Origin: Saccharopolyspora galaxeae
GTDB taxonomy: Bacteria; Actinomycetota; Actinomycetes; Mycobacteriales; Pseudonocardiaceae
Reading direction: 5' to 3'
Assembly (NCBI RefSeq): GCF_016526145.1
Contig: NZ_JADDUE010000004.1
Location: 1-64,000, forward strand
Length of the DNA: 64,000 nt
A model generated the notes under the pieces. That model was not told where the DNA came from and searched no databases. It saw only the letters and a program-made list of their open reading frames with translations. The position numbers were made by a program, and so were the translations under genes. This document shows, in pieces, positions 48,817 to 64,000 of this stretch (position 1 is its first letter; each line of letters starts with the position of its first letter).

Positions 48817-50409
48817 ATGCCCCGCGCCTTCCCCGGAACTGCCGCGATCCTCGCGCTGACGACGACGGCGATGCTGTGCACCGCGGCGCCCGCATCCGCG
48901 GGCCGGACGCACACCCGGCTCGTGGAGATCGCCGCGCACGACGGCACTCCGCTGGTAGCCGCGGTCTGCGAACCGGCCGACCCCGGACCGCACCCGGCCG
49001 CGGTGCTCGTGGCCGCTTGGGGCGGCGGAAGCACGCAGAACATCGTGCCGTGCGAGAACTTCGCCGCCCGCGGGTACGTCGCGGTTTCCTACGGCACCAG
49101 GGGATTCGGCGAATCCGGCGGCCAGGTCGAGGTCGGCGGGCCGGACGACGTCGCCGACGTCTCCGACGTGATCGACTGGACGCTGGCCAACACCGATTCC
49201 GATCCGGCGCGGATCGGCGTGGGCGGGATCTCCTACGGCGCCGGGATCGGTCTGCTCGCCTCGGCCTCCGACCCGCGGATTCGGGCGGTGGCGTCGATGA
49301 GCGGGTGGGCGGACCTGGTCGAGTCGCTGTTCGGCAACCGCACCAGGCGCGCTGCGGTGGCCACGGTGCTGCGGATCTCCGGCGAGAAGGACGGCGACCT
49401 CTCCCCCGAGACCCGGGAGATGCTCACCAAGTACATGTCCGGCGAGGACCGGGAACGCGTGACCGAATGGTCGCGAGTCCGCTCACCTTCCTCCTATGTG
49501 GACGGAATCAACGCGAACCGCCCCGCGGTGCTGATGCTCAACACCTGGAGCGAGACGGTGTTCCCGCCCGCGCAGCTCGCCGAGTTCCAGCACAGGCTGC
49601 GCACCCCGAACCGGCTGGAGCTGATCCCCGGCGAACACGCCGCGGCCGAGACCAGCGGACTGCTCGGGCTGCCCAACGACGCCTGGAACGACACCTACCA
49701 GTGGTTCGACACGCACCTGCGCGGCGCGCCCGCGCCACCGAGCGCGCCGGTCGTGCTGCAGCCCAGAGGTGCCACCGACCGGCCGCGCGAGCAGTACCCG
49801 GACTGGAGCGCGATCAGCGACCGGACCGAACGGTTCTTCCTCTCCGGCGAGGAAGAACTCACCGCCGACGAACCCGCGGACTGGTCCCGGACCATCCGAA
49901 GTGGACGCGACACGGTGGCGAACGGCGGTGTCCCGCTGGTGACCTACACGCTGGAAGCGCTGACCGGGAACCCGCCGACCGCGTTCCTGCCCGCCGTCGA
50001 CCCCGCCGCGGGCGCCAAGTGGACCAGCCCGCCGCTACCGGAACCCCGCGTGTTGCGAGGAAGTCCGCACCTGCGGATGAGCGCGGTACCGCCGGCCCCG
50101 AACGGCATGCTGGTCGCCTACCTCTACGACGTGGACGCCACCGGCACCGGACGGATGATCTCGTACGTGCCGTACTCGTGGGAGAACGCCAAGCCCGGCG
50201 AACCGATCACAGTGGACACCGACCTCCCGCCCACCGCTTACGACGTGCCCGCCGGGCACCGGCTCAGCTTGGTGGTCGACACCGAGGACCCGCTGTACTT
50301 CCTGGACGACAACCCGCCCAACGCACCGCTGACCTTGCAGAACCCGCCGGCGCTGGAGGGCCCGGCGACGCTGGACCTGGCGCTGCAGGACGGAAAGGAG
50401 CAACCGTGA
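48817..50409 (+). CDS. Secreted CocE/NonD-family alpha/beta hydrolase
   Basis: A 530-residue exported hydrolase. The signal peptide is [21 protein letters not shown]. The N-terminal X-Pro dipeptidyl-peptidase-like fold has [36 protein letters not shown] (nucleophile GxSxG) and [11 protein letters not shown] (candidate histidine). The C-terminal part is the jelly-roll domain of this family ([20 protein letters not shown], then [17 protein letters not shown]). Substrates range from esters to amides and cannot be predicted. ATG 48817 follows GAAAGG. The stop overlaps the R2lox start by 4 bases, so the two are co-translated. Confidence 0.87.
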
Positions 50410-51356
50410 CCACCACCGAACACCGGCCGGGCGGTACCCGGATCAACCCGGACTCGCTGCCGTACCGGTTGTGGCACAAGGGACATCGCAAGTTCTGGGA
50501 CCCCGCAGCGATCGACTTCTCGCAGGACGCCCGGGACTGGCAGCAGCTGACCGACCGCCAGCGGTTCGCCGCGACGCTGCTGTGCGCGCAGTTCATCGGC
50601 GGCGAAGAGGCCGTGACCGAGGACATCCGCCCGTTCGTGCAAGCGATGGTGGCCGAGGGGCGCCGCGCCGACGAGCTCTACCTGAGCCAGTTCATGTTCG
50701 AGGAAGCCAAGCACACCCAGGGTTTCCGCCGCTGGCTCGACGCGGTCGGCGTGCAGCAGGACCTGCACCCGCACGTCGCGGACAACCCCGGCTACCGCGC
50801 GATCTTCTACGAGGCGCTGCCGGAGGCGCTGCACGCGCTGTCGGCCGATCCGAGCCCGGCGAACCAGGTGCGCGCGTCGGTCACCTACAACCACCTGGTC
50901 GAAGGCGTGCTCGCGCTGACCGGCTACTTCCTGTGGAACAGCACGTGCGAGCGCTTCGGCATCCTGCCGGGGATGCGCGAGCTGATCCGGCGGATCAGCG
51001 AGGACGAGCGCAGGCACATGGCGTGGGGAACGTTCACCTGCCGCAGGCACGTCGCCGCCGACGACTCGACCTGGGAGGTGGTGACCGAGCGGATGGACAC
51101 GCTGCTGCCGCACGCGATCGGCCAGATCGAGCACGCCCTCGGGCGGTTGGAGGGCGATCCGTTCGAGATGCGCATCGAGGGGCTTTTCGAGTACGCGGCC
51201 GACCGCGCCGCCCGGCGGATCAAGGCGATCGAGTCGGCCCGCGGGGTCCCGGTGGAGCGGATCGACGTGGACCAGGCGCCGGAGCGGCTGGAGGAGGAGT
51301 TCGGGCGGGAGGACGAAGCCGCGTTGCGCGAGGAGGCTTCCGCGGAAAACAATTAG
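50406..51356 (+). CDS. R2-like ligand-binding oxidase (Mn/Fe ferritin-like)
   Basis: A 316-residue protein closely following Mycobacterium Rv0233. The metal ligands are all present: E67 ([12 protein letters not shown]), E100 and H103 ([12 protein letters not shown]), E166 ([10 protein letters not shown]), and E201 and H204 ([12 protein letters not shown]). The Val70 and Tyr161 pair that forms the ether cross-link in characterised R2lox enzymes is also conserved. These proteins bind a long-chain fatty-acid ligand at a Mn/Fe cofactor and probably carry out two-electron oxidations; the substrate is unknown. GTG 50406 overlaps the hydrolase stop. It is not a ribonucleotide reductase subunit, since the radical tyrosine context and C-terminal tail of R2 are missing. 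Confidence 0.93.
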
Positions 51357-51556: not shown

Positions 51557-52873
51557 ATGCTGACGACGGCGAATCATTCCCAGGCGGCAACTCCCGACTC
51601 GGCCGATCCCAAGGCCCCCGGACTGTGGGCGGCGTTGCCGAGCGACCTCGCGCCCATCCTGCGGCCCGAACTGCGCAGCCTCGCGGCGCAGATCCTGGAG
51701 GAGATCCAACGCCGGATCCCCGAATACGCGCGGCCGATGGATCACAACTACGTGCACGCCATCCACCGCGGCGTCGAAGAGGCGCTGAGCCAATTCGTCG
51801 ACCAGATCGCCGACCCCACCGCCCCGCAGGAACGCTGCGCCGAAGTGCACCGCGCCCTCGGCAAGGCGGAAATGCACGAAGGGCGCAGTTTGGACAGCTT
51901 GCAGGCCGCCTACCGGCTCGGTGCGCGGCTCGCGTGGCGGCGCCTCGCGCGGATCGGCGAACGCGCCCGGGCCGCGCCGCGAACGATGCTGCTGCTCGGC
52001 GAAGCCATCTACGCGCACATCGACGAGCTCGCCGCGCTGTCGGTGGAGGGCTACGCCGAAGCCCAAGCCCGCGCGGCGGGCACGCAGGCGCGCAGGCGGC
52101 GCAGGCTGCTGGAACTGCTGCTGTCGGATCCGCAGCCACCGCAACAGATCCTGGAAGAGACCGCATCGGCGGCGCAGTGGCCGCTGCCCGGCAAGGTCGT
52201 GGTCGCCGCGCTGGAACGCTCCGAACAGCAAGAGCCGCACACCAACCCGCTGGCCCGCTGGGAGGCGCTGGTCGACCTGGAATGCGCCCAGCCGCACCTG
52301 CTGGTGCCGTGCACCCAGGACGAGCCGCACGACCTGCCGTGGAACGACCAGCTCGCCGGCTGGCGCGTGGTGATCGCACCACCGGTGGAGATCCGGCAAG
52401 CGCCGCACGCGCTGCGCTGGGCGCGGCGGCTGCTGGAACTGGCGGGCAACGGCGTGGTGCCCAACCGGCCGGTGTTGCGCTGCCGGGACCACCTCTCGAG
52501 CCTGCTGCTGCTCAGCGACGAGAACCTCACCCAGGAGATCGTGCACACCCGGCTGGCGCCACTGGAGAAGCTCAAGGCCAAGCAGCAGGTGCGGCTGGCG
52601 GAAACGCTGCTGGCATGGCTGCAAACCCGCGGCGGCGCACCGGAAGTGGCGCAACGGCTGCAAGTGCACCCGCAGACCGTGCGATACCGGATGCACCAGC
52701 TCGAAGACCTCTTCGGCGAAGACCTGAACGACCCGCAGGCCCGCTTCGAGCTGGAGGTGGCGCTGCGCGCCGCGGGACGGTTGCTGCCGTACGGGGCGCT
52801 GCGCGGCGAAACGGTCGACAAGCCGACCGAACCCCTGCGCAAACCCGAAGATCCGGAGGGCGGAGTCACGTGA
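51557..52873 (+). CDS. PucR/CdaR-type transcriptional regulator
   Basis: A 438-residue regulator. The N-terminal sensory region has IPEYARPMDHNYVHAIHRGV, then HRALGKAEMHEGRSLDSLQA and AYRLGARLAWRRLARIGERA, as found in the RsbRD-like/PucR family of actinomycetes. The C-terminal HTH_30 has LAETLLAWLQTRGGAPEVAQ, then RLQVHPQTVRYRMHQLEDLF. This is the standard PucR DNA-binding module. ATG 51557 follows AAAGAGAG. The GTGA overlap with the DHA2 exporter gene shows co-translation and suggests it controls that exporter. Confidence 0.9.
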   Translation: MLTTANHSQAATPDSADPKAPGLWAALPSDLAPILRPELRSLAAQILEEIQRRIPEYARPMDHNYVHAIHRGVEEALSQFVDQIADPTAPQERCAEVHRALGKAEMHEGRSLDSLQAAYRLGARLAWRRLARIGERARAAPRTMLLLGEAIYAHIDELAALSVEGYAEAQARAAGTQARRRRRLLELLLSDPQPPQQILEETASAAQWPLPGKVVVAALERSEQQEPHTNPLARWEALVDLECAQPHLLVPCTQDEPHDLPWNDQLAGWRVVIAPPVEIRQAPHALRWARRLLELAGNGVVPNRPVLRCRDHLSSLLLLSDENLTQEIVHTRLAPLEKLKAKQQVRLAETLLAWLQTRGGAPEVAQRLQVHPQTVRYRMHQLEDLFGEDLNDPQARFELEVALRAAGRLLPYGALRGETVDKPTEPLRKPEDPEGGVT

Positions 52874-54321
52874 GCGACGCGATGCAGGCCCCTGTCCGCC
52901 AGGCGCCGGTGTTGCTCGCGCTGGGACTGGCCGGGTTCGTGACCGCGCTGGACAACAACATCGTCAACGTCGCGCTGCCGACCGTGCAGGCGGAGTTGGG
53001 GGCCACGGTCCCGCAGCTGGAATGGATCGTCAGCGGCTACGTGCTGGCGTTCGCGAGCCTGCTCATCATCGGTGGGCGACTGGCGGACCTGGCGGGGCGC
53101 AGGCGGATTCTGCAGCTCGGGCTGGCGGCGCTGATCGTCACCTCGGTCACGGCCGGGTTCGCCGAGACCGCGCCGGTGCTGATCGCGGTGCGCTTCGCGC
53201 AAGGCGCATCGGCCGCGCTGGTGATGCCCGCCGCGCTGGCCGTGCTGGCCGCCGACATCACTCCGGCGCGGCGCGAGCTGGCCGCCGGGATCTGGACGGC
53301 GTCGCTGGCGGTGGCGCTGGCGCTGGGGCCGGTCGTCGGCGGTGTGCTCACCGAACACCTGCACTGGAGCTGGATCTTCTTCCTGCACCTGCCCGCCGGG
53401 CTGCTGACGATGGCGCTGGTGTGGTGGGGACTTCCGGACGTGCGGCCGGAACCGATGCCGTTGCGGCACTTGGACCCCGGGGGGCTGGCACTGTCCACAG
53501 TGGTGCTCGCGGCGGGCAGTTTCGCGCTGGTGGAGGGCCAGAGCATCGGGTTCGGCCAGCCGATCATCATCGCGGCCGGAGCGGTGACGCTGGCGGCGAT
53601 TCCGGTGCTGGTCGCGGTGGAGCGGCGCGCCGCCGAACCGATGTTGCACCTTTCCCTGGTGCGCAACAAGGTCTTCGGCGGCGGCACGATCGCGCAGGTG
53701 CTGTGGGGCGTGGGGGTCAACGGGACGCTGCTCTACACCTCGTTGTTCCTGCAGGACGTGCTCGAACTCTCGCCCAGCGCGGCCGGAATGGTCTTCGTGC
53801 CACTGGCCGGGCTGCTCGTGCTGTGCGTACCGTTCGTGCCGCCGCTGAGCGCGCGGTTCGGCGCGCGGTGGACGGTGACCGCCGGAATGGTGCTGGTAGC
53901 GCTGGGATTGTGGCTGCTGGCCGGTTCCGGGCCCGGCACCACGGTGGCGGCGTTGATGCCCGGGCTGCTGTCGATCGGCGTCGGCTCGGCGTTGATCACC
54001 CCGTTGACCTCCGAAGTGCTCGGCGCAGTACCGACCGGCAGCGCGGGCGTGGCCTCGGCGATGATCAGCGCCGCGCGGGAGGCGTCCGGAGTGCTCGGGA
54101 TCGCCGTCGTGGGCGTGGTGCTTTCGTTGACCAGCGACGCCGCATCGGCATCGGGCGCGGCGGCCGACGCCGCCTACTCCGCCGGTTACTCCGCGGGAAT
54201 GCGGTTGGCCGCCGGGTTGGTGCTGCTAGGGGCGTTGGCCACGGCGTTCGCGCTGGCTCCGGCCAAGCCGAGGCGGTCGGCGAACATCGGCCAAGAGCGG
54301 TGCAACTCCCGTTCCCAATAA
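52870..54321 (+). CDS. MFS drug/metabolite exporter, DHA2 (EmrB/QacA) family
   Basis: A 483-residue membrane transporter with 12–14 helices. Motif D1 is LGLAGFVTALDNNIVNVALP, and motif A is SLLIIGGRLADLAGRRRILQ. PALAVLAADITPARRELAAG and LALGPVVGGVLTEHLHWSWI (motif C) follow. These efflux pumps export cationic or amphipathic compounds using proton motive force. GTG 52870 overlaps the PucR gene by GTGA. The last 45 codons are antisense to the Ag85-like esterase gene (136-base tail-to-tail overlap). It could export the product of the neighbouring PKS locus, but this is only positional inference. Confidence 0.88.
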   Translation: MSDAMQAPVRQAPVLLALGLAGFVTALDNNIVNVALPTVQAELGATVPQLEWIVSGYVLAFASLLIIGGRLADLAGRRRILQLGLAALIVTSVTAGFAETAPVLIAVRFAQGASAALVMPAALAVLAADITPARRELAAGIWTASLAVALALGPVVGGVLTEHLHWSWIFFLHLPAGLLTMALVWWGLPDVRPEPMPLRHLDPGGLALSTVVLAAGSFALVEGQSIGFGQPIIIAAGAVTLAAIPVLVAVERRAAEPMLHLSLVRNKVFGGGTIAQVLWGVGVNGTLLYTSLFLQDVLELSPSAAGMVFVPLAGLLVLCVPFVPPLSARFGARWTVTAGMVLVALGLWLLAGSGPGTTVAALMPGLLSIGVGSALITPLTSEVLGAVPTGSAGVASAMISAAREASGVLGIAVVGVVLSLTSDAASASGAAADAAYSAGYSAGMRLAAGLVLLGALATAFALAPAKPRRSANIGQERCNSRSQ

Positions 54322-55304
54322 GGCCAATCGTGCCTACCGGCACCGTAATAGTGCTCGGTGACCGCGATTCCCATCGCCTTCAGGCGCGAAGTCATCGCCA
54401 GCGAAGTCGACAGCGCCGACGGCTCCAGCGAATCCGGTAGCGCCCCCGGAGCGTCCAGCGGGCCGGGCAGGCCGTTGCCGCAGGAGACGTAGAGCGCGGT
54501 GCCGCGCAGCTGTTCGGCGTGGTCGAAGGGATTTCGCGCGGACCAGGTGGGGTGGTCCAGCACGGCACTGCCCCACATCGCCAGCGGGTCCTCCCCCTCG
54601 CGCACCAGAATTCCCTGCACCACACCGGGAACGCCGGGCTGCAGGGTGTTCAGCAGTCCACTGTAGGAGGCCGCGGCGCGGAACATGCCGGGGTGGCGGA
54701 AGGCGTAGGCGAAGGAGCCGTAGCCGCCGACGGACAGGCCGGCGACCGCTCGGCGGTCCCCGGCGCCGTAGTCGCGCTCCAAGATTCCGCGCAGTTCGCT
54801 CAGGTGGAACGACTCCCAGTCCGGTTCACCACCGGCCCACCTGGTGTAGAAGCCGGCCGGGCCACCACTGGGAATCACGGTGAGCACGTCCTTGTCCGAC
54901 ATGAACCGCTGCACGTCGGTGAAATTCGTCCACGCCCGGTAATCCGCGTCCTCGCAGCAGCCGTGCAACAGGTAGAGCACCGGCCAAGTGCGGTCCGGAT
55001 GCTTCTTCCAGCCGCGCGGCAGCAGCAGGCGGACGGGTGCGCTGGTGCCCAGAGCGGGCGAATAGATCAGCAGGTCGAGGGTGCGCGCGTCGAGCCGGTT
55101 CTCCTGCAGGACACTGGGTTCGGCGGCAGGATTTGGTGCGGTGGCAGGACCGGGTTCGGCGGCGCCGGATTTCGCAGCACCGGCCACTTCGGACGACGCG
55201 CCGACGACGGCCTCGGCGGGTGGCGTCGAGGCCCCCGTCGAGACCGCCAGGGCGCCCACCATCGACATGGTCAGCGACGCGCGCCACCACCGTCCACTGT
55301 TCAT
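54186..55304 (-). CDS. Secreted Ag85/esterase-D-type alpha/beta hydrolase
   Basis: A 372-residue exported protein. The signal segment is ASLTMSMVGALAVSTGASTP. An Ala/Pro-rich linker of about 40 residues precedes the catalytic domain, with LLLPRGWKKHPDRTWPVLYL, LHGCCEDADYRAW, DWESFHLSELRGILERDYGA, then VAGLSVGGYGSFAYAFRHPG (nucleophile S191). The candidate histidine is in GAGRHDWPYWERELHRSW. This is the antigen 85 / mycolyltransferase-related esterase family. Placed directly after FAAL–PKS–AccD it may transfer or hydrolyse the PKS product at the cell surface. ATG 55304 has GAAAGG upstream. The last 20 or so residues (ANAVANAPSSTNPAANRIPA) lie beyond the fold and are antisense to the exporter gene. 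Confidence 0.85.
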   Translation of the reverse strand: MNSGRWWRASLTMSMVGALAVSTGASTPPAEAVVGASSEVAGAAKSGAAEPGPATAPNPAAEPSVLQENRLDARTLDLLIYSPALGTSAPVRLLLPRGWKKHPDRTWPVLYLLHGCCEDADYRAWTNFTDVQRFMSDKDVLTVIPSGGPAGFYTRWAGGEPDWESFHLSELRGILERDYGAGDRRAVAGLSVGGYGSFAYAFRHPGMFRAAASYSGLLNTLQPGVPGVVQGILVREGEDPLAMWGSAVLDHPTWSARNPFDHAEQLRGTALYVSCGNGLPGPLDAPGALPDSLEPSALSTSLAMTSRLKAMGIAVTEHYYGAGRHDWPYWERELHRSWPMFADRLGLAGASANAVANAPSSTNPAANRIPAE

Positions 55305-55353
55305 TTGTCGTGCCTTTCGTGCTCGAGCTGGTGCTGGGACCACGTCCGGTCCT

Positions 55354-56910
55354 TCAGAGCGGCATGGTCGAGTGCTTCTTGGGCGGCGTTTCCTGCCGCT
55401 TGTTCGCCAGCACCCGCAAGGCGCGCACCAAGTGCTCGCGCGTGGTGGAGGGCTGGATGACGGCGTCTACGTAGCCGCGCTCGGCCGCGATGTAGGGAGT
55501 GGCCAATGTGGACCGGTATTCCTCGATCAGCTTGGCCCGCACGGCTTCCTCGGTACCGTTGGCCGCGGCCTCGGCCAGTTCCCGCCGGTGCAGCAGGCTC
55601 ACCGCGCCGGAGGCGCCCATCACCGCGATCTCCGCGGTCGGCCACGCGAGGTTCACGTCCGCTCCGAGGTGCTTGGAACCCATCACCGCGTAACCACCGC
55701 CGTACGCTTTGCGCACCACGACGGTCACCTTCGGGACGGTCGCCTCCGAGTACGCGTAGATCAGCTTCGCGCCGCGGCGGATGATGCCGTGGCGCTCCTG
55801 CTCGACACCCGGCAGGTAGCCGGGAACGTCGGCGAAGGTCAGCAGCGGCAGCCCGAAAGCGTCGCAGAACCGCACGAACCTGGCGGCCTTCTCGGAGGCG
55901 TCGATGTCGATGGTGCCCGCGTTCTGCGACGGCTGGTTGGCCACCACCCCGACGCTGCGGCCCTCGACCCGGCCGAACGCGCAGATCATGCTGCGCCCGA
56001 AAAGCGGCTGCACTTCGAGGAAATCGCCGTCGTCGAGGACGAGTTCGAGCACGCGGTGCATGTCGTAGCCCTGGTGCGGCTCGTCCGGCACCAGCACGTC
56101 CAGTTCTCCGGCCGCCCCCACGTCCGAAGCGGACTCGTATTGCGGAGCGCTGTCCAGGTTGTTCGCGGGCAGGTAGCCGAGCAACGTCCGCGCCCAGTCG
56201 ATGGCGTCGGCCTCGTCCTCTGCCAAGTGGTGGGCGTTGCCGGAGATTTCGCTGTTCGTCCGGGCACCGCCCAGCTCCTCCGCATCGGCCTGCGCACCGG
56301 TCACCGACCGCACCACCTCCGGACCGGTGACGAACATGTGCGAGGTTTTCCGCACCATGACGGTGAAATCGGTGATCGCGGGCGAATACACCGCCCCGCC
56401 CGCACACGGTCCCATGATCAACGACAGCTGCGGGATGACACCGGAAGCCAGCGAGTTCCGCCTGCCCAGCTCGGCGTAGTACGCCAGCGAGACCACGCCC
56501 TCCTGGATGCGCGCACCGCCGGAGTCGTTGATGCCCACCACCGGGCAGCCGATCTTCATCGCCAGGTCCATCACCTTCAGGACCTTCTCCCCGAACGCTT
56601 CGCCCATGCTGCCGCCGAAAACGGTGAAGTCCTGCGCGAAGACGCACACCGGGCGCCCGTCGACCGTGCCGTGGCCGGTTACCACCCCGTCGCCGTACGG
56701 TCGCTGGTCGTCGGTTCCGTAGGAGCCACCGCGGTGCCGGGCGAGTTCGTCCAGCTCGACGAAGGAGTCCTCGTCCAGCAGCAGGTGGATGCGCTCGCGC
56801 GCGGTGAGCTTGCCCTTGGCGTGCTGCTTGCCCCGGGCACGCGCATCGGCGTCGTGCACCGCGGTGTCGTGCCGCCGCTGCAACGCCTGGATCCGTTCCG
56901 CGGTTGTCAT
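55354..56910 (-). CDS. Acyl-CoA carboxylase carboxyltransferase (beta) subunit, AccD4-like position
   Basis: A 518-residue carboxyltransferase that makes an alpha-carboxyacyl-CoA extender from a biotinylated alpha-subunit, which is not encoded nearby. LTARERIHLLLDEDSFVELD is the N-terminus. GINDSGGARIQEGVVSLAYY and MGPCAGGAVYSPAITDFTVM form the first oxyanion hole. DVPGYLPGVEQERHGIIRRG and RKAYGGGYAVMGSKHLGADV form the second half. The specificity position that is Asp422 in Streptomyces PccB is Ala408 here, which suggests an acyl group other than propionyl. ATG 56910 overlaps the PKS stop by ATGA, so it is co-translated with the PKS. Confidence 0.92.
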   Translation of the reverse strand: MTTAERIQALQRRHDTAVHDADARARGKQHAKGKLTARERIHLLLDEDSFVELDELARHRGGSYGTDDQRPYGDGVVTGHGTVDGRPVCVFAQDFTVFGGSMGEAFGEKVLKVMDLAMKIGCPVVGINDSGGARIQEGVVSLAYYAELGRRNSLASGVIPQLSLIMGPCAGGAVYSPAITDFTVMVRKTSHMFVTGPEVVRSVTGAQADAEELGGARTNSEISGNAHHLAEDEADAIDWARTLLGYLPANNLDSAPQYESASDVGAAGELDVLVPDEPHQGYDMHRVLELVLDDGDFLEVQPLFGRSMICAFGRVEGRSVGVVANQPSQNAGTIDIDASEKAARFVRFCDAFGLPLLTFADVPGYLPGVEQERHGIIRRGAKLIYAYSEATVPKVTVVVRKAYGGGYAVMGSKHLGADVNLAWPTAEIAVMGASGAVSLLHRRELAEAAANGTEEAVRAKLIEEYRSTLATPYIAAERGYVDAVIQPSTTREHLVRALRVLANKRQETPPKKHSTMPL

Positions 56911-59900
56911 GCGCCCTCCCTGGTGAGTGCGGACGTGCCGAGTACACCCGCGAGGTGCGCCGCGATGACGTCCACGTTCGGCGGGTCGATCATGGACAGG
57001 TGGTCGCCGGGTATCCGCACCACTTCCGGAGCGGCCACGATCTCGTCCCACCCGAGCGCCTCGTCGGTGCGCAGGTAGCGCGGGTCCAATGTGGTCGTGG
57101 TGGTTTCGGCCTCCTGCGCTCGGTACAGCAGCACCCGCCCGTCGAACGGTCCGGGCTGATAGCGCTCCGCGATCCTTGCGTCCACATAGGACGTGTACTG
57201 GTGGTGCAGGACGCCTGCTCCCATGTCGATGTCCGCTCCCGACAGCGCACCGAGCACACGGCGCATCTGCTCGTCTTCGTCCAACCCCTGGAGCTCGGTC
57301 GAGCGCACCTGCAGCGCGACGCCGTAAGTCGACTCGATGTGCTCGGCGAACCGGTCGAACCGGCGCAGCACGAGCTGTTCGGACGTGGCGCCGTCCGGTG
57401 CGGGCAACGGGAGAATGGTGTCGATCAGCGCGACGAACTCGACCGGCTCGCCGAGCTCGGTGAGCCGGCGCGCGGTCTCGTAGGCGAGACATCCGCCGAA
57501 GGACCATCCGCCGAGGCGGTAGGGCCCGTGCGGCTGGAGTTCGCGTACCAGGTCCGCGTACCGCTGCGCCTTGGCCTCGACGGAGTCCAGGTCGTCGAGC
57601 CGTTCCAGGCCGTAGCACGGCTGGTCGGCACCTAGGCTCGCCACCAGCGGCTGGTAAACGCTGGTCGGGCCGCCTGCCGGGTGGAAGAGGAACAACGGGC
57701 GCCCAGTTCCCGTCGTGCGCAGCGCGCGCACCGGGCCGTCGGTTCCTTCGAAGCGCTGCCGCAGCAGATCCGCCATCCCCGACACCGTCGGGGTGCCGAA
57801 CAACTCCTCCGTAGTGTCCGATGAGGACAGTCGTTCGCGAATCCCGCGGGCCACGACGTCGGCTTGCTCCCGCGTCCCACCGAGGTCGTAGAAGTCCTCG
57901 GCGACGCCGAACTCGACCGGGCCCAGTGCCTCGGCCCACAGATGTGCGATCCACCGCTCGGTCGCGTCCCGCGGGCCGATGCGTGCCGACTCGACGACCT
58001 CCGCAACGGTCCCGAGGCCCAGCTGTTCGGCCAGGTGCCGGGCGATGTCGTGCAGGCTCGCCCCGCGCAGCAGCAGCGCGGGAGGGACCGCCACGCCGAA
58101 GTCGCGTTCGACTGCGTTCCGCGCCCGGGTCGCCATCAGCGAGTCGAGCCCCAGCATCGTCAGCGGCGCGGCCGGGTCGAGGTTTTCCGCCGAGCCGCCG
58201 AGGATTCCCGCGACCTCCGACCTGAGATGCCCGGTGATCGATTCGACGGCTTCGGCGGGCCGGTCGCGCGGCAGCGAGTCGACATCGAACCGGCCCGCCG
58301 TCTTCGGCTCCGCGGTGACGACCGCATCGAAGAGCGGACGGGAGCAAAGTTGCGGGAAATACTCCGCAGCGCGCGCCGCGTCGAGCCGCGCCACACCGGT
58401 CGCAGTGCGCCCGGAGGCCAGCACCGCCTCCAACGCTTCGACGCCTTCGGCAGGGGTGAGCTGGTCGATCACCCGCGCGAGCGGGGACTCCGCCGCACCG
58501 CCGACGTCCGCCCAAAGTCCCCAATGGATGGTCGTGGCAGGAAGTCCGCGCGCACGGCGCAACCTGGCGAGATCGTCGGTCCAGGCGTTCGCGGTGGCGT
58601 AGGCGGCCTGTCCGGGAGATCCCAGCAGGGCAGCCGCGGAGGAGAACACCACCCACCAGTCCAGCTCGTGGTCAACCGTGGCCTCGTGCATCCGCCAAGC
58701 GGTGCGCGCCTTCGACCGCCACACCTGCTCGATCGCGTGCTCGTCGAGATCCGCCACGAGACCGTCGCGCAACGCACCTGCGGCGTTCACGACACCGCGC
58801 AACGCCATGCCGTTCTCCGTGGCCGCAGCGACGAGCTGCGCTGCGACGTCCGCAGTGGACACATCGCCGGTCACCACCCGGATCTCGGCACCCTCGGCCT
58901 CGATTTCGGCGAGTTCGCGGGCGACCGCCGCGGACGGTTCACCCCGGCCGTTGAGCACGATGCGCTGCGCCCCGCGCTCGGCGAGCCATCTCGCGACCGT
59001 GCGGCCCAAGCCGCCAAGTCCGCCTGTCACCACGTAGGCAGCCGGACGAACGACCTGATCGGTGCGGATCCGCCCCAACTCGGCGCGGTGCAGCCGCGCC
59101 ACTTCACGATGTTCGCCGCGACGCCGGACCTCGTCGTCCGGAGCATCGGCGACGAGCTCCGCGGCCGCCGATGCCGTTCCGTCCGTGACCAGCATGCTCA
59201 CCCGCAGTTCCGGGTGCTCGAACGCGAGCACCCGCACGAGCGCCCGCAAGCCCCAATCAGCACCGGAATCATCCGATGTGGACAACCACAACCGGATGTT
59301 CAGATCACGCCGGGACATTTCTCGCACGACGGCCGACGCGTGCAGCACGTGCTCCGCTCGCTCGGTCGAATCCGGGGAATCCGCCGGGAAAACGAGCACG
59401 ACACCGCGCGGCGGGAGGCTTTCGTCATCGACGACCACGTCGAGCCCGGACTCGGGCCGGTGGAGGTCGCCGCGCACCGCCCGCTGGCCGGCGTCCCGCA
59501 ATGCCGACACGAGGTCGTCGTCTTCGCCCAGGACCAGCCAGCTGCCTGCTTGCGCCGTGCCCGGCTCGGCCAGGTCCGCCGAATCCCAGCGCAGCTCCAG
59601 AAAAGCTTCGTCCAGTGGACGCGGCGGGGGCGCGAGCCCGCGAGCGCGGATCTCGGCGACCTCCAGCGCCGGCACGCCTTCGCCATCGGTGACCAGCAGC
59701 GAACCGATCGGTTCCGGGCCACCGGTGTGCAACCGCGCGTAGCAGCGGACCTGCTCGGGAAGCTGGCCGAGCTGGCGCACTCCCGCCAAAGCGACCGGCA
59801 CACCGATCCCGGCTTCCGGGGCGCCGTCCCCGAGTCCCGCGGCCAGCAGACTTTGCAGGCACGCGTCCACCAATGCGGGATGTGCCGCGAACATCTCGGC

Positions 59901-62900
59901 ATCGGCGGCCTGCTCCGGCAACGCGACCTCGGCCACCGCGAGGCCACCACGGGCACGTGCGGAACGCACCCCGCGGAAAGCCGGCCCGTAATGCTGACCG
60001 GCCGCACGCAACGCCGAATACAGATCGACCTCGGAACCGTCCACCTCGGACTTCTCGAGTCCGGATCGAGTCCCGCTGCGGACGAGGGTTGCCGTGGCAT
60101 GGCAGGTCCATCTGCCGGTGACCGATCGCGAGTGCACCTCGACACGCCCGGTACCGGACTCGTCCGGCGTGAACGTGGTCGTGACGGGCACGTTGTCCGC
60201 CAGCAGCAGCACTTGGTGCAACTCGAGCGATTCTAGGCGCAATGCCCCGAGGTCGGCGTCCCACGCCTGCGCACCTGCCGCGAACGCGATCTCCAGGTAG
60301 GCACTGCCGGGCAGCACCGGAGTGTCCTGCACCTTGTGATCGGCTAGCCAGGGCAAAGCTTCTGTTCCGACGTCGCCGCGCCACGCGCTTGCGCCGCCCG
60401 GCAGATCGACTCGCAGGCCCAGCAGTGGATGTCCGGCCGGATCAGGTGCGGAACGTGTTGCGACCCAATGGGATTCGTGCTGCCACGCGGCCGGCGGCAC
60501 ATCCACGAGACGACCTTTCCGATACCCGGTGACCGGTATGCGGCCGTTCGTGTGCAGCTCGGCGAGGGCCGTGTGGAAGGTTTCGGTTCCATCCGTCCCG
60601 CGGCGGCCGGTGAACGCCGCCACCGGACGGGAAACTCCCGCCTCCGCCAGGGTCTCCTCGATCGCCGTGGTGGCGACCGGGTGCGGGGCCAGCTCGGCGA
60701 AAGTGCCGAAACCGGCCTCCGCTGCGGCGCGCACGGCCTGCTCGAACCGCACGGGGTTGCGCAGGTTGCGGACCCAGTAGTCGGCGTCGAACGCGGGGAC
60801 CGAGCCAGGATCCGCCGTGCTGAACACCATTGTGGACGTTTCCCGGGGGGCGATCCCGGAGAGCTCCTCGCGCAACCGCGCCAGCACCCCGTCCACGGCA
60901 GCGCTGTGCCCGGCGCCGGACACGCCGAGCAGGCGAGCACTGCGGCCCGCGCGCTCGAAGTGCGTCACCAGCAGCTGCACCTCGTCGGAGGGCCCGGTGA
61001 CCGTGCACCGGACCGGGGACGCGTGCACCGCCACGTCCACCCCGGGGAAAAGCTCCGCCAACGCCTCCACTTCCGCGGCCGACGCTTCCACGGCCGCCAT
61101 CGCGCCGTTTCCCGCCGTGTCCACTTCGGACAGCAGTCGGGAGCGCGCGGACATCACACGCAGCCCGTCGCTCTCGTCGAGCGCTCCCGTGGCGACGGCC
61201 GCGGCCACTTCACCCAGCGAATGCCCGATCACCGCAGCAGGTTCGACACCGTAGGCGCGCCACAGCTCGGCATAGGCGACCTGCAGTCCGAACAGGACCA
61301 GCTGCGTCCGGTGCACATCACCGAGATCGTCCTGCCCGCTCAACACCGCGCGCAGGGAGAACCCGCACTGCCGCAGGTATTCCGGGTCGAGCCGGTCGAC
61401 CGCCGCGGCGAACGCGGGCTCGTCGGCCAGCAGCTCGCGGCCCATTCCGGCCCACTGCGAGCCGTATCCGGAGAACACCCACACGATCCCCTTGTCACGC
61501 GTGGTCACCCTGCCCCGGACGCCGCCGGATCCGGCGGCGAGCGCACGGAGGCCGTCGAGCACGCCGTCCCTGCCACGAGCCACCACGGCAGCCCGCTCGG
61601 GATGCTGCTCCCGCCGGTGCGCCAAGGTGTGCCCGATGTCGGCCAGGCCGGCAGCACGCCCCTCGGGCGTTGCCATCCACTCCGCCAGGTCCGCGGCCGC
61701 GCGAAGCATCCGCTGCTCGGTGATTCCGGAGACGACGAAGGATTGCACGCCATCGCCGTCCGGGCTCCGGCGCCGCGAAGGCATCCGCCGCCACGCCTCC
61801 AGGACGACGTGCGCGTTGGTGCCGCCGAAACCGAACCCGGAGACCCCCGCACGCGCCACACCCGAGTACTTCGGCCAGTTCCGCGCCGCACCGACCACTT
61901 CCAGCCCGGACTGCTCGAACGGGATGTGCGGGTTCGGCTCCCGGTAGTGCAAGCTCGCGGGTAGCGAGCCGTGCCGCATCGACAGCACGACCTTGATCAA
62001 TCCCGCGATTCCCGCAGCGGCCTCCAGGTGCCCGAGGTTCGTCTTGACCGATCCCAGCAGCAGCGGCCGCTGCGCGGGCCGCCCGCGGGCCAGCACCGAG
62101 CGCAGGCCCTCCGCTTCGATCGGGTCGCCGAGCAACGTGCCCGTCCCGTGCGCTTCGACGTAGTCCACAACGGACGGATCGAGGTCCGCACCTGCGTAAG
62201 CACTACGCAGCAAGTCCGCCTGCGCCACCGGATTCGGCGCCATCAGGCCGTTGGACCTGCCGTCCGAGTTGACCGCCGAGCCCCGCACGACCGCCAGGAT
62301 CCGGTCGCCGTCGCGGTTCGCATCGGAGAGTCGTTTGAGCACGACGACACCGCAGCCTTCACCGCGCACGATGCCATCGGCGGAAGCGTCGAAAGCCTTG
62401 CACCGACCGTCGTCCGACAACGCTCCGGCACGATCGAAGTTCGCCGTGATCGCCGGCGACAGCAGCAGGTTCACACCGCCGGCCAGCGCGACCCGGCTCT
62501 CGCCCGACCGCAGGCTCGCGCACGCCTGGTGCACCGCCACCAGCGAGGACGAGCACGCCGTGTCGATCGCGGAACTCGGCCCCCGCAGGTCCAGGAAGTA
62601 CGACAACCTGTTGGCCACAATGGACAGTGCTGCGCCGGTTCCGGTCCACGCGTCCACCGCTCGCAGATCGCGCGTGGTCAACGCGCCGTACTCGGTGGAC
62701 GAAACCCCGACGAACACGCCGGTCGCGCTGCCGCGCAACGCCGAAGGCACCACGCCCGCGTGTTCCAGGGCCTCCCACGCAACCTCCAGCAGCAGCCGCT
62801 GCTGCGGGTCCATGACCGCGGCTTCGGTGGGCGAGATCTCGAAGAACTCCGCGTCGAACTCGTCCACTCCGTCCAGGAACCCGCCTGCCTTGGGCAGTTT

Positions 62901-63359
62901 GGACAGCGCGGGGTCCGCCCCGGAGAACCTCTCCCAGCGCCCCTCGGGGACCACGCCGACACCGCTGGCACCGGACTCCAGCAGCTCCCAGTAGCGGCGC
63001 GGTCCCCGGGCTCCCCCTGGGAAGCGGCAGCCCACGCCTACCACCGCAACGGGTTCGTCCGGCTCCGATTTTCGCGGGCGGGGGAACGGATCCGGCGACT
63101 CGTCGGCGCCGTCGGACCCGTCCGGTTGCGCCGCCAACGCCGCGGAAAGCCGGTCGATGGTCGGGTGCTCCCACAGCAGCGTCGGAGGCAACCGCTGCCC
63201 GACGATGTCCTGCACCCGCCCGGCCAGCTCCACCGCGTCCCGCGAGGACAACCCGAACTCCTGGAACGGGCGCCCGGTGTCCACCGAACCCGGGGGCAGC
63301 CCGAGCCGTCCGGCGACGTGCTGCGCCAACCAGTCCGCCCACTCCGCGCGATCACGCAT
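56907..63359 (-). CDS. Pks13-like type I polyketide synthase: ACP-KS-AT-DH-KR-ACP-(inactive carrier)-TE
   Basis: A 2150-residue megasynthase. Domains in order: N-terminal ACP (1–75) with [10 protein letters not shown], Ser39, the Pks13-type loading carrier. KS (about 100–520): C269 in DTACSSS, H404 in EAHGTGT, H444 in NLGHLEA. AT (about 625–910): GHSLGEV with S714 and the unusual specificity motif GAGH (815–818). DH (about 975–1245): H1008 ([12 protein letters not shown]) and D1165 (DACLQ). KR (about 1440–1610): [10 protein letters not shown]1574, Y1587, N1591. ACP2 (1705–1780): LGLDS, S1740. A carrier-like domain (1795–1872) with LGGTREQ has Arg1830 where serine is required. TE (1885–2150): GWSFGG S1953, H2120. 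ATG 63359 overlaps the FAAL stop by 8 bases. No ER. Expected reaction: condensation of a FAAL-loaded fatty acyl chain with a carboxyacyl extender, then reduction (and possible dehydration), then TE release. Confidence 0.93.
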
Positions 63360-64000
63360 GATCGGCCTCCAAGTAGCGCTCGCGGCACAACCGGCGGGCG
63401 ACCTTGCCGCTCGACGTGCGCGGAACGGTGTCCGGTTCCACCAGCACGAGATCGCTGAGCAGCACACCGTGCTCGGCCGAGACCGCCGAGCGCACCGCAC
63501 TGGTGATCTCCGCGGGGTCGCGGTCGGACGCGGCGACGCGCCTGCCGTACTCGGCCACGACGACCAACCGCTCACCTTCGGCCGCGCTGATCGCGAAAGC
63601 GGCGGTGTGGTGCTTGCGCACCGCCGGGTGCGCCTGCTCCACGGTCAGCTCCACGTCCTGCGGGTAGTGGTTGCGGCCGTCGATGATGATCACGTCCTTC
63701 ATCCGGCCGGTGACGAACAGCTCGCCGCCGTCCAGCACACCGAGGTCGCCGGTGCGCAGCCAGCCGTCCGCGGGCAGCTCACCCGCGCCTACCGGTTCGG
63801 CGTCTGCCAGCTCGACGCCAAAGGTGTCCTGCTCGTCCCGGCCCCAGTAGCCCTGGCCGGTGTTCGGGCCGTGCACCCAGATCTCGCCCACGCCGCCGTC
63901 GGGCAGCACGGTGTGCGAGTCCGGGTCGACCACCGCGACCCGCTGTCCCACCGGGCGGCCGCAGGAGACCAGGTCGCTGACCGCCTCAGTCCCCTGCGGT
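63352..64000 (-). CDS. Fatty-acyl-AMP ligase, FadD32-like (C-terminal part; 5' end outside window)
   Basis: The visible 215 codons run off the right edge. CGRPVGQRVAVVDPDSHTVL, then GGVGEIWVHGPNTGQGYWGR, are the adenylation core. GWLRTGDLGVLDGGELFVTG is the hinge, and GRMKDVIIIDGRNHYPQDVE is the FAAL-type C-terminal lid (GRNHYPQDI/V). PRTSSGKVARRLCRERY carries the late catalytic lysine. FAALs activate fatty acids as adenylates and pass them directly to an ACP, here presumably Ser39 of the PKS. The FAAL-specific insertion lies outside the window. The stop overlaps the PKS start by 8 bases. Confidence 0.92.
   Translation of the reverse strand, partial: PQGTEAVSDLVSCGRPVGQRVAVVDPDSHTVLPDGGVGEIWVHGPNTGQGYWGRDEQDTFGVELADAEPVGAGELPADGWLRTGDLGVLDGGELFVTGRMKDVIIIDGRNHYPQDVELTVEQAHPAVRKHHTAAFAISAAEGERLVVVAEYGRRVAASDRDPAEITSAVRSAVSAEHGVLLSDLVLVEPDTVPRTSSGKVARRLCRERYLEADHA

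Follow-up and report, generated by a model that had tools for sequence, protein, structure and literature searches.

Organisation of the operon

The DNA analysed here (the window) comprises positions 1 to 64,000 of contig NZ_JADDUE010000004.1 of Saccharopolyspora galaxeae (assembly GCF_016526145.1), the start of a contig in a genome of 6.4 Mb. Its end carries an operon on the minus strand that encodes a FadD32-like long-chain fatty acyl-AMP ligase (FAAL; C-terminal part at 63352..64000), a Pks13-related polyketide synthase (PKS) of 2150 amino acids (56907..63359, ATG at 63359), the acyl-CoA carboxylase β subunit AccD (55354..56910) and an exported Ag85/PS1-like esterase, a likely acyltransferase (54186..55304, ATG at 55304). 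An earlier note on this DNA had described this run of genes, and their identity, order, strand and spacing were all as claimed there. The FAAL stop codon and the PKS start codon overlap by 8 bases (ATGCGTGA), the PKS and AccD genes overlap by 4 bases, and the ATG of the esterase gene lies 49 bases past AccD. The full FAAL gene extends beyond the window and occupies contig positions 63352-65100; an ATG with an upstream GGAGGGAG was preferred as its start over a GTG at 65115.

Domain architecture of the polyketide synthase

The PKS displays the domain order ACP-KS-AT-DH-KR-ACP-dead ACP-TE (acyl carrier protein, ACP; ketosynthase, KS; acyltransferase, AT; dehydratase, DH; ketoreductase, KR; thioesterase, TE), all encoded on the minus strand. 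Catalytic residues were assessed in an alignment of 109 PKSs of the family and 19 Pks13 proteins. The N-terminal ACP (63126..63344) carries the motif GLSSRDAV, singled out earlier as a Pks13 hallmark and letter-for-letter identical to that of M. tuberculosis and M. smegmatis Pks13; its Ser39 is conserved in 109/109 relatives and 19/19 Pks13 proteins. It is followed by the KS (61791..63056; Cys269, His404, His444), the AT (60543..61484; Ser714, Arg739), whose motif is GAGH as in Pks13 and not HAFH or YASH, and the DH (59634..60431; His1008, Asp1165), which was matched by the Pfam models PKS_DH_N and PS-DH and is homologous in its N-terminal half to the pseudo-DH of Pks13. The catalytic domain of the KR (58506..59042; Lys1550, Ser1574, Tyr1587, Asn1591), the C-terminal ACP (58032..58226; Ser1740) and the TE (56940..57701; Ser1953, Asp1980, His2120) were, like the KS, assigned by Pfam and alignment. 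Whereas the DH and KR domains proposed in the earlier note were confirmed by Pfam, that note had overlooked a further, dead carrier domain that separates the C-terminal ACP from the TE (57762..57968, approximately residues 1798-1866). This domain, the equivalent of Pks13 ACP*, has Arg1830 in place of the phosphopantetheine-bearing Ser, and Ser is not among the common residues at this site in the family alignment.

Invariant in the 109 family PKSs were the Ser residues of both real ACPs, the Cys-His-His set of the KS, Ser-Arg-His of the AT and Ser-Asp-His of the TE. The reductive domains were nearly as well conserved, with the DH His and the DH Asp/Glu each present in 107 proteins, the KR Lys and Ser in 104 and the KR Tyr in 102. 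Four PKSs from Solirubrobacterales (L145, L160, L163, L164) have an intact DH and no KR, so that a separate reductase would be needed there. The PKS of Streptomyces sp. JHD 1 (L166) has neither DH nor KR, and its locus contains a FAAL, an AccD and an Ag85-like gene.

The best solved relative of the window PKS is Pks13, and the match spans the N-terminal ACP, KS, KS-AT linker, AT, ACP and dead ACP-TE regions. The features of the wider Pks13 superfamily (N-terminal ACP motif, KS, GAGH-type AT, ACP, dead ACP* and TE) are all present. The Pks13 equivalog model NF040607 was not reached (1398.7 bits against a cut-off of 2100), and the enzyme departs from the Pks13 architecture, which is ACP-KS-AT-ACP-TE without active DH or KR, in possessing a complete DH and KR with their catalytic residues.

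FAAL, AccD and esterase

The best PDB matches of the FAAL were FadD32 (2e-135) and, next, FadD23; with 557.8 bits, it did not reach the FadD32 equivalog cut-off of 975 in NCBIfam. The FAAL tree grouped it with FadD32, apart from other FAALs (SH-aLRT 97), in agreement with its earlier designation as the FadD32 counterpart. The clade containing FadD32 also includes one mycobacterial paralog.

In MccB, the carboxylase subunit of stambomycin biosynthesis, the use of longer acyl-CoA substrates has been tied to Gly161, a position occupied by Phe in all enzymes acting on ≤4 carbons, and to Ala replacing Asp421/422 (PMC5187497). The operon AccD has Gly161 and Ala422, and hence the AccD4-type combination of Ala at 421/422 with a small residue at 161; the same two specificity residues occur in AccD4, as whose counterpart it had been proposed. 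Ala at 422 together with Gly, Ser or Ala at 161 was found in 19/19 operon AccDs and 18/18 AccD4 proteins. All four AccD paralogs encoded elsewhere in the genome carry Phe at 161; their residues at the 422 site are Asp, Ile, Ile and Tyr. Although the overall similarity of the operon AccD to PccB (775 bits) is higher than that to AccD4 (526 bits), its identification as a plain PccB was rejected on the basis of residues 161 and 422.

For the esterase, described earlier as an exported Ag85-type enzyme, the best solved relatives were PS1 (2.7e-43) and Cmt1, both corynebacterial mycoloyltransferases, and Ag85. Its catalytic triad Ser204/Glu307/His338 (numbered from a GTG at 55343) is kept in nearly all relatives, and its N-terminus (MNSGRWWRASLTMSMVGALAVSTG) is signal-like as read from the sequence. 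Homology, triad and predicted export signal together indicate that it is a member of the Ag85/mycoloyltransferase family; a PADLOC search with the esterase gave no match.

Distribution and gene neighbourhood

The operon was found in a second genome of the same species and in three of the four genomes of other species of the genus that were searched. A survey of the family with a 367-amino-acid C-terminal piece of the PKS as query, which could miss genomes with a divergent C-terminus, gave matches in 28 of 101 genomes, which represent 18 of the 47 genera sampled. Named matches of the scan comprised Actinopolyspora, Amycolatopsis, Saccharothrix, Actinokineospora, Kibdelosporangium, Frankia, Parafrankia, metagenome-assembled genomes (MAGs) of Solirubrobacterales and a Streptomyces. 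Two record labels, a 'Bifidobacterium breve' MAG (L162) and 'Rhodococcus rhodnii NRRL B-16535' (L186), were at odds with the sequence and were not accepted as naming the hosts.

Neighbourhoods were counted in 95 loci that differ from one another in KS sequence, spanning Pseudonocardiaceae, Frankiaceae, Solirubrobacterales and one Streptomyces. A FAAL gene was present near the PKS gene in 93 of these loci, an Ag85-like gene in 82, a major facilitator superfamily (MFS) transporter gene in 78 and an AccD gene in 53; a PucR regulator (31), a secreted lipase (22) and the R2-like ligand-binding oxidase R2lox (9) were less frequent. Given the conserved neighbourhood over 95 loci, the association of the genes is not due to chance. 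The synteny survey, put forward earlier as a check, thus revealed a layout that is widespread in Actinomycetota and not peculiar to one genome.

In the window, the MFS transporter, of the DHA2 type, is encoded on the plus strand (52870..54321), convergent with the operon, and its relatives adjoin the operon in the 78 loci counted above. The esterase and MFS genes overlap tail to tail by approximately 136 bases (54186-54321), as they likewise do in locus L100. The PucR-type regulator lies on the same strand as the transporter (51557..52873). On the far side of the operon, a secreted lipase gene (PF03583; contig 65556-66803) is divergent from the FAAL gene and adjoins the operon in about 22 of the 95 loci. 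In some subclades (the L085-L094 group and several Amycolatopsis loci), a transporter of the MMPL family, to which the trehalose monomycolate exporter MmpL3 belongs, adjoins the operon beside the MFS gene. The MMPL member tested matched the MmpL3 model weakly, with 82.9 bits against a cut-off of 1400.

Phylogeny and the origin of Pks13

In a KS-AT tree of 76 rows, whose result depends on the outgroups used, the window PKS family formed a group with true Pks13 (100/99) that excluded modular and mycobacterial Mas-type PKSs. This outcome favours the relationship for which the earlier note had named KS phylogeny as a check, and an ordinary modular PKS was rejected on this basis. One DH+KR clade splits off first, and Pks13 joins the remaining members (100/99). 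A constraint that forced the non-Pks13 members together lowered the likelihood by 25 units (approximately unbiased (AU) test, p=0.016). In the FAAL tree, FadD32 likewise falls inside the FAALs of the family, but beside a different subclade. The PKS of L166 clusters with the window clade, which means that a short form resembling Pks13 arose at least twice, with an independent loss in L166. The earliest-branching Pks13 in the tree, L252 (G175), falls below the equivalog cut-off and may be an intermediate.

A 2024 cryo-EM study of M. tuberculosis Pks13 described two domains to which it gave no role (PMC11649247): DH*, a pseudo-dehydratase that resembles a DH truncated to its N-terminal half, and ACP*, a non-functional carrier preceding the TE. 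The AT-ACP segment of Pks13 was found to match the N-terminal half of the DH of the operon family (probability 98.3%, E 1.3e-14); a gap falls at the loop bearing the catalytic His. Controls gave 53% for DHs of modular PKSs, 0.2% for a KR and 1.2% for a reversed DH; the score was 36 for modular DHs, compared with 86-96 for family subsets of equal size. The decayed N-terminal half, lacking the catalytic-His loop, is kept in 19/19 Pks13 proteins.

Because Pks13 is nested in the DH+KR family, its pseudo-DH matches the N-terminal half of the family DH and the dead ACP* is shared, Pks13 most likely descends from the DH+KR family through loss of its KR and of half its DH. The operon family is also the most likely origin of the mycolic acid system (FadD32-Pks13-AccD4). 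The FAAL-PKS-AccD-esterase run may be called mycolate-condensation-like, as it had been in the earlier note; DH and KR, described there as added, are probably ancestral domains that Pks13 lost. The reduction of the β-keto product of Pks13 is carried out by a separate enzyme, CmrA (PMC8733736).

An operon-linked R2lox subfamily

An R2lox gene (50406..51356, plus strand) lies 3 kb from the operon; its product exceeded the NF006199 equivalog cut-off of 286 with 500.3 bits. R2lox proteins are described as a family of Mn/Fe oxidases that bind fatty acids (PMC6399176), and alkane hydroxylase activity has been reported for one of them (PMC10867098). Since R2lox of any type occurs in 57 of the 101 family genomes, its presence alone is no evidence of a link. 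In the R2lox tree, the copies linked to the operon in four lineages (the window group, the S. flava group, the Amycolatopsis deserti group and Actinokineospora) formed a single clade (100/99) that excluded the 20 unlinked copies, among them the second copy of this very genome (C11:631410-632712). On account of this separation, the reading of the window R2lox as the usual copy of the genome was rejected. The separate clade suggests that the protein is an oxidase dedicated to the operon, and the suggested link between the operon and a dedicated R2lox subfamily is new here.

Proposed product and alternative explanations

We consider it likely that the window carries a lipid operon of the mycolate-condensation type, whose host lineage is not known to produce mycolates and which belongs to the family from which the mycolate system most likely arose. 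The description of the lineage, which agrees with the view taken earlier, rests on taxonomy (Pseudonocardiales/Actinopolysporales; PMC6194230) and on the finding that this genome has no Pks13 equivalog. Judged by homology, the FAAL would adenylate a long fatty acid and load it onto the N-terminal ACP, while a carboxylase containing the operon AccD may, as its two specificity residues suggest, carboxylate a second medium- or long-chain acyl-CoA. The AT would then transfer the carboxylated extender to the C-terminal ACP, after which the KS would join both chains to an α-alkyl β-ketoacyl product. The extender is probably alkylmalonyl, because AccD has both longer-chain residues and the AT shares the GAGH motif of Pks13, and the product would be α-branched as a result. 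Unlike Pks13, the PKS itself would perform the reduction by its KR and probably a dehydration by its DH; with both domains intact, the product should be a 2-alkyl-3-hydroxy or a 2-alkyl-2-enoyl chain, two outcomes between which the sequence cannot tell. The TE would release the chain, probably by transfer to a small polyol or sugar. The MFS transporter, or an MMPL protein in some relatives, may export the product, and the Ag85-like enzyme would probably move the chain to a surface acceptor. A bolder proposal, held tentatively and possible rather than probable, is that the operon represents the ancestral mycolate machine, in which a single enzyme would condense, reduce and perhaps dehydrate a mycolate analogue that is exported, oxidised further by R2lox and then anchored to the cell surface by the Ag85-like protein, with the pseudo-DH and the dead ACP of Pks13 as its relics.

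Several observations weigh against the proposal of a mycolate-condensation-type operon ancestral to the mycolate system. The operon lacks AccD in about 40 of the 95 loci, where the extender may therefore differ or originate elsewhere, and the Actinopolyspora and Solirubrobacterales loci have no Ag85-like gene nearby. The KS-AT and FAAL trees differ in what they place as the exact sister group to the mycobacterial genes, the group examined by the AU test was first seen in an earlier quick tree, Pks13 sequences deviate in composition, and the AccD group containing AccD4 is moderately supported (83).

The PKS might instead be an ordinary iterative enzyme primed with a fatty acid, adding malonyl or methylmalonyl units to give an unsaturated chain or polyene, with AccD supplying methylmalonyl-CoA. 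The intact DH and KR and the closer match of AccD to PccB would fit such an enzyme, which is nevertheless unlikely in view of the GAGH motif of the AT, the Ala422/Gly161 pair shared with MccB and AccD4 in a genome that has separate Phe-type paralogs, and the Ag85-like transferase and dead ACP held in common with the mycolate system. The direction of change could also be the reverse, with Pks13 as the older form and a DH-KR cassette gained by the Pseudonocardiaceae-type enzymes; the architecture of Pks13 is simpler, the Streptomyces L166 also has a short form, and the deep order was moderately supported in a quick KS-only tree. We regard this as quite unlikely, as all 19 Pks13 proteins hold the family-specific decayed DH half, Pks13 is nested within the DH+KR family by support value and AU test alike, and the position of L166 within the window clade marks an independent loss. 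That the Ag85-like gene and R2lox are chance neighbours of an operon proper consisting of FAAL, PKS and AccD appears improbable: although the esterase gene is not near 13 of the 95 loci, R2lox is near nine and R2lox as such is common in the family genomes, the esterase gene occurs at 82 loci in several arrangements, and the operon-linked R2lox proteins are separated in the tree from the unlinked copy that this genome also has.

How mycolic acids and the mycomembrane originated has been described as a mystery, and Ag85 has been treated as limited to mycolate-positive species (PMC6194230). With a syntenic, catalytically intact-looking relative of the condensation-and-transfer set in Pseudonocardiaceae, Frankiaceae and Solirubrobacterales, this origin becomes testable, and a specific explanation can be offered for DH* and ACP* of the drug target Pks13. 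R2lox, a fatty-acid-binding oxidase without a settled role, gains a conserved context in lipid biosynthesis, and the two R2lox forms of one genome may provide a handle on its function.

Comparison with known systems

No Pks13-like or mycolate-like system outside mycolate producers was found in a search of a collection of open-access papers. When true mycolate loci (L190-L195) were searched with the four window proteins, Ag85, FAAL, PKS and AccD were found in one row. Mycolic acids, which form the waxy coat of the tuberculosis bacterium, are produced by the condensation of two fatty chains. The locus responsible, fadD32-pks13-accD4 of Mycobacteriaceae with its fbp (Ag85) genes, shares with the window operon the order FAAL-PKS-AccD, a homologous Ag85-like gene nearby, the N-terminal ACP motif, the GAGH-type AT, the dead ACP before the TE and the AccD specificity residues. 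It differs in that the window-type PKS has a complete catalytic DH and KR, the window-type esterase gene stands after AccD or before FAAL, the exporter is of the MFS type, and the window PKS and FAAL score below the Pks13 and FadD32 equivalog cut-offs. The mycoloyltransferases PS1, Cmt1 and Ag85 share the Ser-Glu-His triad and the HxWxYW region with the esterase, which is 27-39% identical to its Ag85-type counterparts in true mycolate loci and resides in a host lineage not known for mycolates.

FAAL-loaded PKSs of the Mas/Pks2 type (FadD28-Mas, FadD23-Pks2) resemble the window system in their FAAL partner and in the order KS-AT-DH-KR, but have no N-terminal ACP/ACP*-TE arrangement, and the sampled mycobacterial KS-AT sequences fall in a separate clade; Mas-type PKSs contain an enoylreductase. 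MccB (SamR0483) has in common with the operon AccD Gly161 and the Asp-to-Ala change that admits longer acyl-CoA substrates, whereas it serves a modular macrolide PKS with extenders derived from medium-chain acyl-CoA (PMC5187497).

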